This document shows, piece by piece, positions 5,561 through 11,514 of a DNA stretch of 34,047 bases. Made by a program: the position numbers and the translations under genes. The DNA is from an uncultured Alphaproteobacteria bacterium. GTDB taxonomy: Bacteria; Pseudomonadota; Alphaproteobacteria; Micropepsales; Micropepsaceae. Each line of letters starts with the position of its first letter. Positions within the stretch are counted from its first letter, which is position 1. The notes beneath the pieces were generated by a model. It made no database searches. It saw only the letters and a program-made list of their open reading frames with translations, and was not told the DNA's origin. The stretch covers positions 1 through 34,047 of the forward strand of contig CAILUV010000037.1 in the NCBI GenBank assembly GCA_903837555.1, written 5' to 3'.

Positions 5561-5636
5561 GGGGCCATAGCTCAGCTGGGAGAGCGCCTGCATGGCATGC
5601 AGGAGGTCAGCGGTTCGATCCCGCTTGGCTCCACCA
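5561..5636 (+). tRNA. tRNA-Ala (anticodon GGC)
   Basis: A 76-base cloverleaf with encoded CCA. The acceptor strand GGGGCCA pairs with TGGCTCC. The anticodon stem CCTGC/GCAGG (5587-5591/5599-5603) closes the loop ATGGCAT with anticodon GGC at 5594-5596, reading GCC and GCU. The T loop GTTCGATC is intact. The 3' half of the gene also forms one arm of a long inverted repeat with downstream DNA. Confidence 0.97.
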
Positions 5637-8093: not shown

Positions 8094-8431
8094 ACCGCCG
8101 GGCGCTAATCGCGGGACTGGCAGCGGCCGGCGCGGCGGTGGCCGCAGGCCTGTATCGCTTCACCGATGTGTTCGTGAAACACCATCCGGCGACGCCGTAC
8201 GACGATTTGCTGACTCATCTGCCCGACCGCGACCAGGCCAAGCGGCTGGGCGCGCTGGTAAAGGGAACGCCCGATGCGAATGCGCTGGCGGCGCAGTTGA
8301 GAGGCAAAATGCCCCGTGGGTTGAGTGCCGCGGCCAAGGCCGACATTGCGGCGGGGCGACTGGTGGAAGTCGAAGGCTGGCTGCTGCCGCAAAGCATGGT
8401 GCTGCTGGCGGCGCTGGCGGCAAAAAGCTAA
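8090..8431 (+). CDS. Small Tat-signal partner of the GMC dehydrogenase
   Basis: A 113-residue protein with N-terminal NRRALIAGLAAAGAAVAAGL, a twin-arginine-like signal followed by a hydrophobic stretch. The mature part ends with RLVEVEGWLLPQSMVLLAALA, recalling the G-W-x-L-S-x-T-E ending of small proteins encoded next to GMC dehydrogenases. It overlaps the GMC gene as ATGA, so the pair is very likely stoichiometric. The role, as export escort and electron-transfer or stability subunit, is inferred from context. It is shorter than the subunit-3 protein at 28864 and not obviously the same family. Its stop overlaps that of the converging pabBC by 4 bases. Confidence 0.75.
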   Translation: MNRRALIAGLAAAGAAVAAGLYRFTDVFVKHHPATPYDDLLTHLPDRDQAKRLGALVKGTPDANALAAQLRGKMPRGLSAAAKADIAAGRLVEVEGWLLPQSMVLLAALAAKS

Positions 8432-10104
8432 GCGGCTTTGCCCGGGATAAGCCCGCGCAGCGAATTACCGAAGTAAAATCCACCCTTCAGGTCACCCGGC
8501 GTCAACACGCCTTCGCGCGCCCTGCCCTGCTCGATCAGCTCGGCGCGCAAACAGCCGCCCAGCACGCCGGCGGAAATCGGCGGCGTCAGCAACACCCCAT
8601 CACGCTCGACAAAGATATTGCTGCGCGCACCTTCGGTCAGTTCGCCGCGCTCGTTGCAGAAGACAACCTCGTCCGTTCCGAGCCGCTTGACTTCATCCTC
8701 GTACAGTTCGCGCCAACTGGTCTTGTGGCGCAGCAGAAGATCGGCGCTATCTGTCCGCTCCGGCGAAACGGCGTAACGCCAATGGGACGGATTGGCCGCC
8801 AATTCATAAGCCACTGCCGCGTGATCGCCCTGCTCGTTCAAGGTCAGGCGCACGCGCTGGGCATCCGTCTTCCCTGTCACCGCATGATGCAGCGCGATGC
8901 GGGCGGCGCAGGAATCAAATGCCAAACCCAAAATCCGCGCCGAGGCTTCCATGCGGGCGAAATGGCGATCAAGACGAACAAAAGCGCTGTCCCATTTCAA
9001 AGTCTCGATCAACTCCAGCGGGCGCCTGTCACGCTCGAAGAAACGTGCTTTCAGGAGACACTCGGCATATTCGCTGTCTTCACGCGAATCCTGCACCACT
9101 CCGCCGCCGATGCCCAGTTCGCCGCGGTTGCCCATGATGGTCAGCGTGCGAATGGCAACGTTGAACCGCGCCGACCCGTCGGGCGCAAAATGCCCGACCG
9201 CGCCGCAATAAGCGCCGCGCGGAGAGCTTTCCAGCGCCCGCAGAATTTCCATGGCGCGTATCTTGGGCGCACCGGTGACCGAGCCGCAGGGAAACAGCGC
9301 CCGCAGAATATCGGCCACGCCAGCGTCGGCGCGTTTTTGCGCCGTCACAGTCGATACCATGGTGTGCAGAGTGGGATAGGTTTCGACCTTGTACAGATCG
9401 GACACTGCCACGCTGCCGCCTTGCGCAATGCGGCTGAGATCGTTGCGGATCAGATCCACGATCATCAGATTCTCGGCGCGGTCCTTGGCGCTGGCCGATA
9501 GGCGCGCGCGTTCGCTGTCATCGTCGCCGCCCCTGGACGCGGTGCCCTTCATCGGGCGGGTCGTCAGGCGGCCGTCAGCGCAGACATCAAAGAACAGCTC
9601 TGGCGACAGGCTCACGATCTGGCGCACCCCGTCATCGACAAAGGCGCAATGCGGCGCACCGCTCGCCTTGCGCAGTTGCTCATAAAGCGCGCGCGCATCA
9701 CCCAGGAACGCAAAGCGGGCCCGGAAACTGAGATTGGCCTGATAGATGTCGCCGGCGGCGATGTAATCCTTCACCGCCGCGAACCGCAGGCCGTAAGCAC
9801 CCGCGTCCCATTCGGGCGTCAGCGGACCAGCATAGGCCCGCCCTGTCAGGGCCGGGGCGGTGCCCGGCGCGTCGAACACGCCCAGCCGCAGCAGCGGGCG
9901 TTTGGGGGTATGGTGGATCAGCCGGGGTTCCAGCGCATAGCCCAGCTCATATCCCAGCCAGCCCGCCACATGCCGCCCCTGCGCCAGGGCGGCCTGCGCG
10001 GCTGCCAGGGCCACCGGCACCTCATCAGGCCCGTCTGCGCCTATGACCTGCCGGGGAGCGGCGAAAACCTGCCGTCCGGACACATCATCGAGGAGAACCA
10101 GCAT
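8428..10104 (-). CDS. pabB: Aminodeoxychorismate synthase I / 4-amino-4-deoxychorismate lyase fusion
   Basis: A 558-residue bifunctional folate enzyme. The N-terminal 375 or so residues are a chorismate-binding PabB domain (AAGDIYQANLSFR, TRPMKGTASRGGDDD, ENLMIVDLIRNDL, CGSVTGAPKIRAMEIL, GIGGGVVQDS). The remainder is a class IV aminotransferase-fold PabC domain (LIETLKWD, FCNERGELTEGARSNIFV, GVLGGCLRAELI). Together they convert chorismate toward p-aminobenzoate, given an amidotransferase subunit encoded elsewhere. The start is the ATG at 10104 with AAGGG 6 bases upstream; a TTG two codons earlier has no room for a Shine-Dalgarno. It is divergent from the heat-shock unit. Confidence 0.94.
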   Translation of the reverse strand: MLVLLDDVSGRQVFAAPRQVIGADGPDEVPVALAAAQAALAQGRHVAGWLGYELGYALEPRLIHHTPKRPLLRLGVFDAPGTAPALTGRAYAGPLTPEWDAGAYGLRFAAVKDYIAAGDIYQANLSFRARFAFLGDARALYEQLRKASGAPHCAFVDDGVRQIVSLSPELFFDVCADGRLTTRPMKGTASRGGDDDSERARLSASAKDRAENLMIVDLIRNDLSRIAQGGSVAVSDLYKVETYPTLHTMVSTVTAQKRADAGVADILRALFPCGSVTGAPKIRAMEILRALESSPRGAYCGAVGHFAPDGSARFNVAIRTLTIMGNRGELGIGGGVVQDSREDSEYAECLLKARFFERDRRPLELIETLKWDSAFVRLDRHFARMEASARILGLAFDSCAARIALHHAVTGKTDAQRVRLTLNEQGDHAAVAYELAANPSHWRYAVSPERTDSADLLLRHKTSWRELYEDEVKRLGTDEVVFCNERGELTEGARSNIFVERDGVLLTPPISAGVLGGCLRAELIEQGRAREGVLTPGDLKGGFYFGNSLRGLIPGKAA

Positions 10105-10140
10105 CTGCAACCCTTGATTGTACCATGCCCCAAGGGCCGC

Positions 10141-10168
10141 CTTGAACGAGAACGAAACGGCACCATAT
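10141..10168 (+). promoter_or_regulatory. Sigma-32 (RpoH)-type heat-shock promoter
   Basis: CTTGAA at 10141-10146 matches the sigma-32 -35 element exactly. After 14 bases, CACCATAT (10161-10168) matches the CCCCATnT -10 element at all but one fixed position. The predicted start at about 10175 falls at the base of the first leader hairpin. The next genes encode Hsp20 and DUF1150 proteins. Confidence 0.7.
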
Positions 10169-10175
10169 CAGATCA

Positions 10176-10238
10176 GGACCCGCCCTGCCTTAGAGGGGGC
10201 AATCCGGTCCACAGCCGCTCAAAGGAGGGCTGAGAGTG
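10176..10238 (+). promoter_or_regulatory. Candidate ROSE-like RNA thermometer
   Basis: Two successive hairpins fill the leader. The first pairs GGACC (10176-10180) with GGTCC (10206-10210) and GCCC (10182-10185) with GGGC (10197-10200). The second pairs CAGCC (10212-10216) and CTC (10218-10220) with GAG and GGCTG (10225-10232), leaving G10217 bulged and AAAG as loop. The AGGAGG Shine-Dalgarno is wholly inside this second stem, next to the GTG start at 10236. A bulged G in a (C/T)CGCT strand opposite the Shine-Dalgarno is the hallmark of ROSE elements, which regulate hsp20 genes in alphaproteobacteria. Confidence 0.65.
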
Positions 10239-10511
10239 AACAGGCATACGACATTCGCAAGCCCGTATCTGCTGGGTTTTGAACATCTCGAAAGATTGCT
10301 GGAACGCGCTGTCCAGTCGGAGCCCCACGGCAAAACGTTCCTGCACCGCGGCATCGCGGCGCGGCAATTTTTGCGCAGCTTTGTCCTGGCGGACGGCATC
10401 GAAGTCACCGCAGCCGCGTTGGCAAATGGATTGCTCAAAATCGATTTGGCCCGCAGGCCGATCCAACCGGGCGTGCGGACCGTAGAAATAACGACTGGAG
10501 GTTTATCATGA
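10236..10511 (+). CDS. Internally deleted Hsp20/IbpA-type small heat-shock protein
   Basis: A 91-residue protein started at GTG with a strong AAAGGAGG. The first 27 or so residues (FASPYLLGFEHLERLLERA) match the N-terminus of alphaproteobacterial Hsp20. Residues from about 35 (TFLHRGIAARQFLRSFVLAD, then ANGLLKIDLAR) match the second half of the alpha-crystallin domain. The intervening 50-60 residues of family members, with YPPYNIE, the AVAGF strand and the first beta strands, are missing with the frame preserved. It is either a decayed chaperone or a mini-form. Its stop overlaps the DUF1150 start (ATGA). Expression signals for heat shock are intact. Confidence 0.78.
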   Translation: MNRHTTFASPYLLGFEHLERLLERAVQSEPHGKTFLHRGIAARQFLRSFVLADGIEVTAAALANGLLKIDLARRPIQPGVRTVEITTGGLS

Positions 10512-10762
10512 CGGACAGATTTGAAGCCGATGACGTTGAAGAGGCCCGCGCCGTGGCTGGCCGTATCGCGTACATCAAGCCCACGGGCAGCGATGAAGCG
10601 CATCGCCTGGGCCTGCTTCCGGCCAATATCGAGCTGCCTGCCGGCATGAAGCTGTATGTGCTGCACGCCGAAGACGGCAGCGTGCTGGGCTTCACGGACG
10701 GGTATGAATCCGCCTATGGCGCCGCGGTGCAGAATGAACTGACCCCCGTCTCCGTCCATTGA
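10508..10762 (+). CDS. DUF1150 family protein
   Basis: An 84-residue protein whose YIKPTGSDEA, ELPAGMKLYVLHAEDGSVLGF, and ending AAVQNELTPVSVH match DUF1150 (PF06620), an alphaproteobacterial family commonly encoded directly after hsp20. The start overlaps the stop of the Hsp20 gene by ATGA, so it is translationally coupled and shares the heat-shock promoter. No signal peptide or membrane segment is visible. The biochemical role of the family is not established; a co-factor role with Hsp20 is inference from the gene pairing. Confidence 0.88.
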   Translation: MTDRFEADDVEEARAVAGRIAYIKPTGSDEAHRLGLLPANIELPAGMKLYVLHAEDGSVLGFTDGYESAYGAAVQNELTPVSVH

Positions 10763-10786
10763 CGCGGCAAGGGTTTTGAAAACAGG

Positions 10787-10816
10787 AAAAGCCGGGCCTT
10801 CGGGTCCGGCTTTTTT
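10787..10816 (+). terminator. Intrinsic terminator with UUCG tetraloop
   Basis: An 8-bp GC stem (10791-10798 with 10803-10810) closes the loop TTCG and is flanked by AAAA and a run of six T. It ends the Hsp20-DUF1150 unit 25 bases after the stop. Confidence 0.92.
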
Positions 10817-10836
10817 GTTGGGCAAAGATTGCTAAT

Positions 10837-11514
10837 ATGCTGCCCATGCGCACCACACTCTTCGGCGTTACCGCCGCCCTCGCCCTTCTTGTCGCCGCTC
10901 CCGCCTTTGCCCAGAGCGCCGAACCCGAAGTCGTCAATCCGCTGCCGCCGCAGCCCTTGTCTGTGGAGCCCGCGCCCAGCAATCCGCCCATGACGGGCCC
11001 CAAGCTGCTGATCTCCACCAGCATGGGCGACATCACCCTGCAGCTCGACGCCGTGCGCGCGCCCAAAAGCGTGGCCAACATCCTGGCCTATGTGAAGCGC
11101 AAGCATTATGACGGCACCATCGTTTATCGCGTCGCGCCCGGCTTTGTGGTGCAGATGGGAAGCTGGGAAAGCGCCACCAAGGGACGCAGCGTTTTCGCCG
11201 CGCCCGTGCCGCTGGAATCCAACAACGGCCTGTCCAACCTGCGCGGCACCGTGGCGCTGGCGCGCGAGGAAGGCCCCGACACCGCCAAGGCCGAGTTCTT
11301 CATCAACCTGGTCGACAATTTCAACCTGAACCGCAATCCCAACGATCCCGGCGTCAACACCGGCTATGCCGTGTTTGGCCAGGTGATCGGCGGCATGGAT
11401 GTGGTAGACAAGATCGGCAATGTGGCGGTGGGCGACAATGGCCCGATGCCGGGCCAGGCGCCGGTAACGCCGATCCCCATCAAGCGGATCGCGGTTATAA
11501 AGGAATCGCCTTAA
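10837..11514 (+). CDS. Exported cyclophilin-type peptidyl-prolyl isomerase
   Basis: A 225-residue cyclophilin with a signal peptide (RTTLFGVTAALALLVAAPAFA-Q, cleavage near residue 25), so it acts in the periplasm on proline bonds of folding proteins. The mature part has TSMGDITLQLDAVRAPKSVANI, YDGTIVYRVAPGFVVQMG, a core with RGTVALARE and AEFFINL in place of FFI, and GYAVFGQVIGGMDVVDKI. An in-frame ATG at 10846 is an alternative start that removes only three residues. Its stop overlaps the converging ptsN stop. It shows the short-loop prokaryotic form, with a Pro-rich linker at residues 30-52. Confidence 0.93.
   Translation: MLPMRTTLFGVTAALALLVAAPAFAQSAEPEVVNPLPPQPLSVEPAPSNPPMTGPKLLISTSMGDITLQLDAVRAPKSVANILAYVKRKHYDGTIVYRVAPGFVVQMGSWESATKGRSVFAAPVPLESNNGLSNLRGTVALAREEGPDTAKAEFFINLVDNFNLNRNPNDPGVNTGYAVFGQVIGGMDVVDKIGNVAVGDNGPMPGQAPVTPIPIKRIAVIKESP

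Follow-up and report, generated by a model that had tools for sequence, protein, structure and literature searches.

A predicted ROSE-like hairpin in the leader of a heat-shock operon with a shortened hsp20 gene and a larA-like gene in an alphaproteobacterium of the Micropepsaceae

In a 2005 survey by Waldminghaus and colleagues, hsp20 genes of Caulobacter were reportedly among the ROSE candidates. Caulobacter is also counted among the bearers of classical ROSE elements in the work on Pseudomonas ibpA (PMC3669281), which describes leaders of 61–62 nt that fold into two hairpins, stand under sigma-32 control and have a second hairpin whose melting was shown by probing and reporters. A minimal two-hairpin ROSE element with double heat control, as the original prediction had proposed for the locus analyzed here, is therefore an already published design. 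The ibpA leader of Escherichia coli (ROSE_2) likewise combines sigma-32 with an RNA thermometer on small heat shock protein (Hsp) genes; additionally, IbpA represses its own mRNA via the 5′ UTR, which requires an arginine of the alpha-crystallin domain (PMC10474464). LarA of Caulobacter is a DUF1150 protein that activates Lon, and its gene shares a predicted sigma-32 operon with that of a small Hsp (shsp2-larA; PMC10665427); the main text of that paper on shsp2-larA does not contain the word thermometer.

The window analyzed here is a stretch of 34,047 nt (contig CAILUV010000037.1, assembly GCA_903837555.1) from an uncultured alphaproteobacterium of the family Micropepsaceae; genomes and loci are designated below by G and L numbers. 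The consensus of sigma-32 promoters is CTTGAA, 12–16 nt and CCCCATNT, and the window contains an RpoH (sigma-32) type promoter with a single mismatch to it at positions 10,141–10,168 (+ strand): CTTGAA at 10,141–10,146, a 14-nt spacer and CACCATAT at 10,161–10,168, exactly where the original prediction had placed them. Its assignment to sigma-32, made by sequence, is supported as well: up to two mismatches to CTTGAA/CCCCATNT were found in 34 of 37 related leaders (leader L003 was too short to score), versus 0.5% of shuffled regions, and the same genome encodes an RpoH above the curated cut-off. Transcription would then start near position 10,175. A pattern scan of positions 10,100–10,900 retrieved neither sigma-70 promoters nor terminators. 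The divergent gene at 8,428–10,110 (− strand), for a fused chorismate-binding (PabB-like) and class IV aminotransferase (PabC-like) protein, has as its upstream region the same 125-nt gap that holds the heat-shock promoter.

The leader is about 60 nt long (63 nt if taken as 10,176–10,238) and reaches the GTG at 10,236; RNA folding predicts in it two hairpins, with the coordinates that had been proposed. Hairpin I (10,176–10,210, +) consists of GGACC...GGUCC with an inner stem; it has a folding energy of −13.9 kcal/mol, 36 of 300 base shuffles were equally stable, and its sequence differs among relatives. Hairpin II (10,212–10,232, +), the predicted ROSE-like thermosensor, is indicated by folding, by conservation and by covarying outer pairs, and is composed of CAGCC, the bulged G10217 and CUC, an AAAG loop, and GAG followed by GGCUG. 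Its 5 + 3 pairs thus make the 8-bp stem with a single bulged G anticipated by the original prediction, and the anti-Shine-Dalgarno motif read from the sequence is CCGCU (10,215–10,219, +). The Shine-Dalgarno AGGAGG of the shortened hsp20 (10,223–10,228, +) had been described as enclosed in full, which is correct for its last four bases, whereas A10223 and G10224 lie unpaired inside the loop. The GTG-started gene expected downstream is hsp20 (Pfam PF00011). As in Pseudomonas ibpA, there is a short two-hairpin leader with the Shine-Dalgarno in the second hairpin, a sigma-32 promoter, a small Hsp gene, and a YYGCU-type strand with a G opposite the Shine-Dalgarno (PMC3669281). Conversely, the strand in the window reads CCGCU and not U(U/C)GCU, the gene starts with GTG, hsp20 carries an internal deletion and is followed by larA, and the leader is more stable than the Pseudomonas leaders (−27.4 kcal/mol versus −15 and −21.5 kcal/mol in PMC3669281, where the program version may differ). 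In the leader of the second hsp20 of this genome (L002, on contig C36 of G000), the only further one that the search retrieved there, the Shine-Dalgarno likewise lies in a hairpin with one bulged base (CAACGCUU...GGAGGUUG), and Rfam gave no ROSE match.

The strand masking the Shine-Dalgarno had been predicted to follow the U(U/C)GCU of ROSE elements, but it reads CCGCU in the window and C(C/U)GCU in 38 of 38 genus-like leaders. Scanning with the ROSE covariance models, as had been suggested, also failed to place the element in a known family, because neither Rfam ROSE (RF00435) nor ROSE_2 (RF01832) matched the window at gathering or lax thresholds. RF01832 matched nowhere in the genome, which sets the element apart from the E. 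coli ibpA leader, and RF00435 likewise had no match in the genome. Nor was there any ROSE or ROSE_2 match, at lax thresholds, in 22 further loci (15 from other alphaproteobacteria, six genus-like loci and the second hsp20 of this genome). At the gathering threshold, Rfam recognized nothing in the window except a tRNA gene (5,561–5,633, +). The element shares with rhizobial ROSE (RF00435) its position in an hsp20 leader and the Shine-Dalgarno hairpin, and differs from it in the missing RF00435 match, in having two hairpins instead of the classical three to four, and in the first base of the motif. Since one defining motif and the Rfam matches are lacking, we describe the element as ROSE-like and do not file it in an Rfam family. 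What stands of the proposed minimal ROSE type is a short hsp20 leader with two hairpins, the Shine-Dalgarno paired in the 3′-proximal one, and a bulged G; by these sequence features, the element of the window is a ROSE-like variant. RF00435 does match elsewhere in the genus and class: a search of 41 genomes gave ten matches with E values up to 1, of which a single one is above the cut-off. Nine of the ten begin 307–351 nt upstream of an hsp20 match and have an Hsp20 motif just behind, while the larA C-terminus was found at none of the ten; these nine therefore precede other hsp20 genes and not hsp20-larA. The tenth (G015, E 1), with no hsp20, is probably a chance match.

Hairpin II is conserved beyond chance, which does not apply to its folding energy. 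Leaders of relatives were collected by searching for the protein of the downstream gene in 61 genomes, taking the loci of the best 30 matches, and in GTDB (80 loci). The 38 genus-like leaders comprise 25 taken by kinship (the window locus and the same-genus loci returned) and 13 from GTDB, added on visual inspection once the leaders were known. The paralog L002, L044 (broken frame, start not found), L033 (the same record as L003) and copies of G-numbered loci (L037–L041, L045, L047, L055, and L106) were excluded, and the loci of same-genus matches such as G002, G003, G005, G020, G024, and G030 enter only the larA count given below. Counted over leaders that share ancestry, and hence overstating the independent evidence, the bulged base is a G in 38 of 38; standard pairs occur in 297 of 304 cells (eight pairs in 38 leaders), compared to 210 of 304 and 147 of 266 after a shift of the 3′ arm by one position; and pairing at the two variable outer pairs is kept in 70 of 76 cells, where 2000 re-dealings of the 3′ arms gave 51.7 on average and never more than 62. 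In the subset of equal loop length (15 leaders, 14 distinct) pairing was complete (112/112 cells versus 37 to 65% with slid arms), six cells had changed on both sides, and the covariation score was reached by none of 500 shuffles; coarser measures were reached by 60 (pairs changed on both sides) and 28 (further pair types) of 500. Within 40 nt of the start, YYGCU is present in all 38 genus-like leaders and in 58 of 61 other alphaproteobacterial leaders, while shuffles gave averages of 2.5 and 5.5, respectively.

In the genome of the window, the hairpin pattern had one match, at the site described here, and the reversed control had none. The bare pattern matched in 47 of 60 genus genomes, but the reversed control also matched many of them, and we therefore discarded it as a specific marker. 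A covariance model of the hairpin, whose training set includes the window, scored this site best in its genome (41.9 bits, the next 24.2). Beyond the genus-like set its reach was narrow, with 15 matches up to E 5 in 72 loci: four in an hsp20 leader (L072, L109, L113, and L118, the last two falling inside RF00435 matches) and 11 elsewhere.

The original prediction missed both an internal deletion in hsp20 and the intact larA/DUF1150 gene that follows. The shortened hsp20 (10,236–10,511, +; Pfam HSP20) starts with GTG, encodes 91 aa and lacks around 48 codons with respect to its 139-aa orthologs, through an in-frame internal loss whose junction is located by alignment near 10,310. The lost residues begin ahead of YPPYNI and end around RGKQ, which removes at least the first third of the alpha-crystallin profile; the Pfam match (E 1e-6) covers profile positions 36–102 of 102, compared to 6–102 in an intact 139-aa ortholog, and the 91-aa product does not contain a complete alpha-crystallin domain. 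The distance from the hairpin to larA is 293 nt in the window versus 437 nt in G001. The retained codons show dN/dS ratios of 0.06 to 0.27 with eight intact orthologs, compared to 0.37 to 0.57 for the decayed hsp20 of G036 with three orthologs, where dN is raised by an ungapped comparison of the N-terminal stretch, which is out of register. For larA, the ratio was 0.078 in the one pair G000 and G036. The low ratios of the window hsp20 imply that the deletion is young, or false, or that the short protein is still under selection.

The larA-like gene (10,508–10,762, +; 84 aa, Pfam PF06620, E 7.6e-15) overlaps with its start the stop codon of hsp20 (ATGA) and has its own Shine-Dalgarno, GGAGG, at 10,497–10,501. 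Its product ends in PVSVH, so that a DUF1150 domain, a place in a small Hsp operon and a C-terminal His are all found; from these sequence features it is likely a Lon activator, and a full-length Lon above the curated cut-off is encoded in the same genome. The locus thus resembles shsp2-larA of Caulobacter in the order small Hsp gene and DUF1150 gene, in sigma-32 and in the conserved C-terminus with its terminal His (PMC10665427), and differs from it in the shortened Hsp20. A probable intrinsic terminator, read by eye, follows larA at 10,787–10,816 (+; GCCGG..TTCG..CCGGC and a T run). After the operon there is a gene for a single-domain cyclophilin (10,837–11,514, +); the genes at this position in G006 and G008 (412 and 409 aa) appear by eye to encode two cyclophilin-like domains in tandem.

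Within the genus, hsp20 is being lost repeatedly while larA is kept. DUF1150 is present in 55 of 60 genus genomes, in one of them (G018) with an internal stop, and in all 42 of those with a completeness of 90% or more and a contamination of 5% or less. From the 60 genomes, 56 larA loci were found and 55 judged, with G081 excluded because its contig begins ~21 nt before larA; this set is less selected than that of the leaders, and the hairpin pattern and Hsp20 motifs applied to it were devised after leaders and proteins had been seen. When a reading frame before larA that retains four or all five of the Hsp20 motifs is taken as intact, hsp20 is open at 48 of the 55 loci, including that of G015 in spite of a late stop codon, and damaged or gone at seven. 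These seven are the window, with its in-frame deletion; G036, with several indels and no Pfam match remaining; G079 (the same locus as L044), with a deletion and a frameshift; G018 (L181), with damage to the hsp20 start codon and to both genes; and G006, G008, and G083, where hsp20 is gone or reduced to mere scraps. As the lesions differ among loci, several of these losses were probably independent, to judge from the sequences. In L181, a deletion has apparently joined hsp20 to larA; a TAG stands where the two meet, CTG has replaced the start codon, and the hairpin is intact.

The hairpin was found at 51 of the 55 larA loci: all four loci whose hsp20 is damaged have it, as do 47 of the 48 where hsp20 is open (in G082, also with an open hsp20, it has a divergent form), but none of the three that lack hsp20, which is an argument against a need for it by larA alone. 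In G006 and G008, the end of a consensus RpoH promoter lies 74 and 90 nt upstream of larA, respectively, and only a poor match, with three mismatches, precedes larA in G083. The loci concerned in G008 and G006 (L132 and L135) have CTTGAA-N14-CCCCATCT with no mismatch before larA and no hsp20, and L153 (G083) is a larA without hsp20. In G008 there also persists a GTCGCT...GGAGGAC stretch that resembles a remnant of the hairpin. A relocation of the thermometer to larA was considered for G006 and G008, where the Shine-Dalgarno of larA is paired, but was discarded because 104 and 98 of 300 shuffles matched the opening cost. The assembly G075 contains two hsp20-larA operons (L143 and L156), each with its own hairpin; with a listed contamination of 6%, one of them may be foreign.

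The reading that we favor, with a probability of roughly 0.7, is that this is the control region of a heat-shock operon, in which an RpoH promoter, a heat-loosened ROSE-like hairpin and a coupled larA would act together and LarA would maintain the selection. For the window we infer a temperature response, a transcription start and a coupling of hsp20 to larA as follows. Heat would raise RpoH, and RNA polymerase with RpoH would start near 10,175, producing an mRNA with a stable 5′ hairpin and then the ROSE-like hairpin, in which the hsp20 Shine-Dalgarno would pair with CCGCU across the bulged G. Warming would loosen hairpin II at the bulged G and so free the Shine-Dalgarno; ribosomes entering at the hsp20 start would traverse the short frame to the ATGA and boost the translation of larA. 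Selection on the control region would then be maintained by LarA, a putative Lon activator, as hsp20 is lost. Several results count against this reading: no melting is predicted, the leader is more stable than those of Pseudomonas, the opening cost of the Shine-Dalgarno is ordinary, the strict motif and an Rfam match are missing, the retained hsp20 codons of the window look constrained, the hairpin is absent at the three loci without hsp20, and the promoter of G083 is poor.

The folding energies bear on whether hairpin II responds to temperature at all. The energy of the leader is ordinary (z −0.79; 41 of 200 shuffles fold at least as well), and the cost of opening the Shine-Dalgarno was equalled or exceeded in 62 of 300 shuffles of the upstream bases. 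The leader was folded at temperatures up to 60°C, and even there hairpin II stayed closed in the minimum free energy structure; opening AGGAG costs 4.7 kcal/mol at 25°C and 3.7 kcal/mol at 42°C. Such high and barely temperature-dependent stability is what a static brake would show, that is, a hairpin that merely lowers translation while heat induction comes from the sigma-32 promoter alone. A plain brake has no need, however, of the unpaired G that is invariant among the 38 leaders, and the same calculation leaves the proven ibpA element of E. coli unmelted: its cost goes from 3.7 to 3.5 kcal/mol with an 80-nt leader and from 1.6 to 1.8 with a 60-nt leader. Folding at 25–45°C, which had been proposed as a check, thus shows no melting in a model that shows none for a known thermometer either; for this reason the energy model cannot decide on melting, and we dropped thermodynamics as proof of a thermometer, given also that shuffles fold equally well. 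We consider a static brake unlikely. In another reading, the leader may also, or mainly, be bound by an autorepressing small Hsp, by analogy with E. coli IbpA and the repression of its own mRNA (PMC10474464), and the operon would then be released from repression by the loss of part of the alpha-crystallin domain. The second Hsp20 of this genome would be at hand for such a role, with an uninterrupted frame and its own bulged hairpin over the Shine-Dalgarno, but binding of an alphaproteobacterial Hsp20 to its leader would be a further assumption, and we regard autorepression as very unlikely.

The shortened hsp20 admits alternatives of its own. It could be an assembly artifact or a population variant, in which case the element would be an ordinary hsp20-larA thermometer; the assembly is in 101 contigs and the retained codons appear fully constrained, as would suit such an origin. 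Against it stand the different lesions in G036, G079, and G018 and the disappearance of hsp20 before larA in G006, G008, and G083: with other kinds of lesions and outright absences in relatives, the loss seen across the genus can hardly all be artifact, and for the window itself we consider this explanation rather unlikely. Alternatively, the 91-aa protein might be a working mini-Hsp20 under selection, as the low dN/dS over its retained codons and the preservation of the frame and of the ATGA overlap would suggest. We find this very unlikely, because the protein lacks at least the first third of the alpha-crystallin profile and a young deletion accounts for the same ratios.

Under the favored reading of a heat-controlled operon whose selected product is LarA, LarA may by now be a more important product of the operon than Hsp20. 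A bolder version would have the whole control region, RpoH promoter and ROSE-like thermometer, switch its client, the small Hsp being repeatedly lost, the promoter kept for LarA, and the thermometer kept with it as long as a damaged hsp20 persists, whose broken frame would act as a translated leader coupling the thermometer to larA. We propose this version only tentatively and think it somewhat improbable; the hsp20 of the window may still matter, or its deletion may be very young, since its retained codons show no relaxed selection. At this locus, a likely RNA thermometer that goes unmatched by the Rfam models would control a heat-shock operon for a likely Lon activator. In the natural series of intact, damaged and absent hsp20 genes before larA, the needs for the small Hsp and for LarA can be distinguished, and these genomes would test the functional relation between small Hsp and LarA suggested in PMC10665427.
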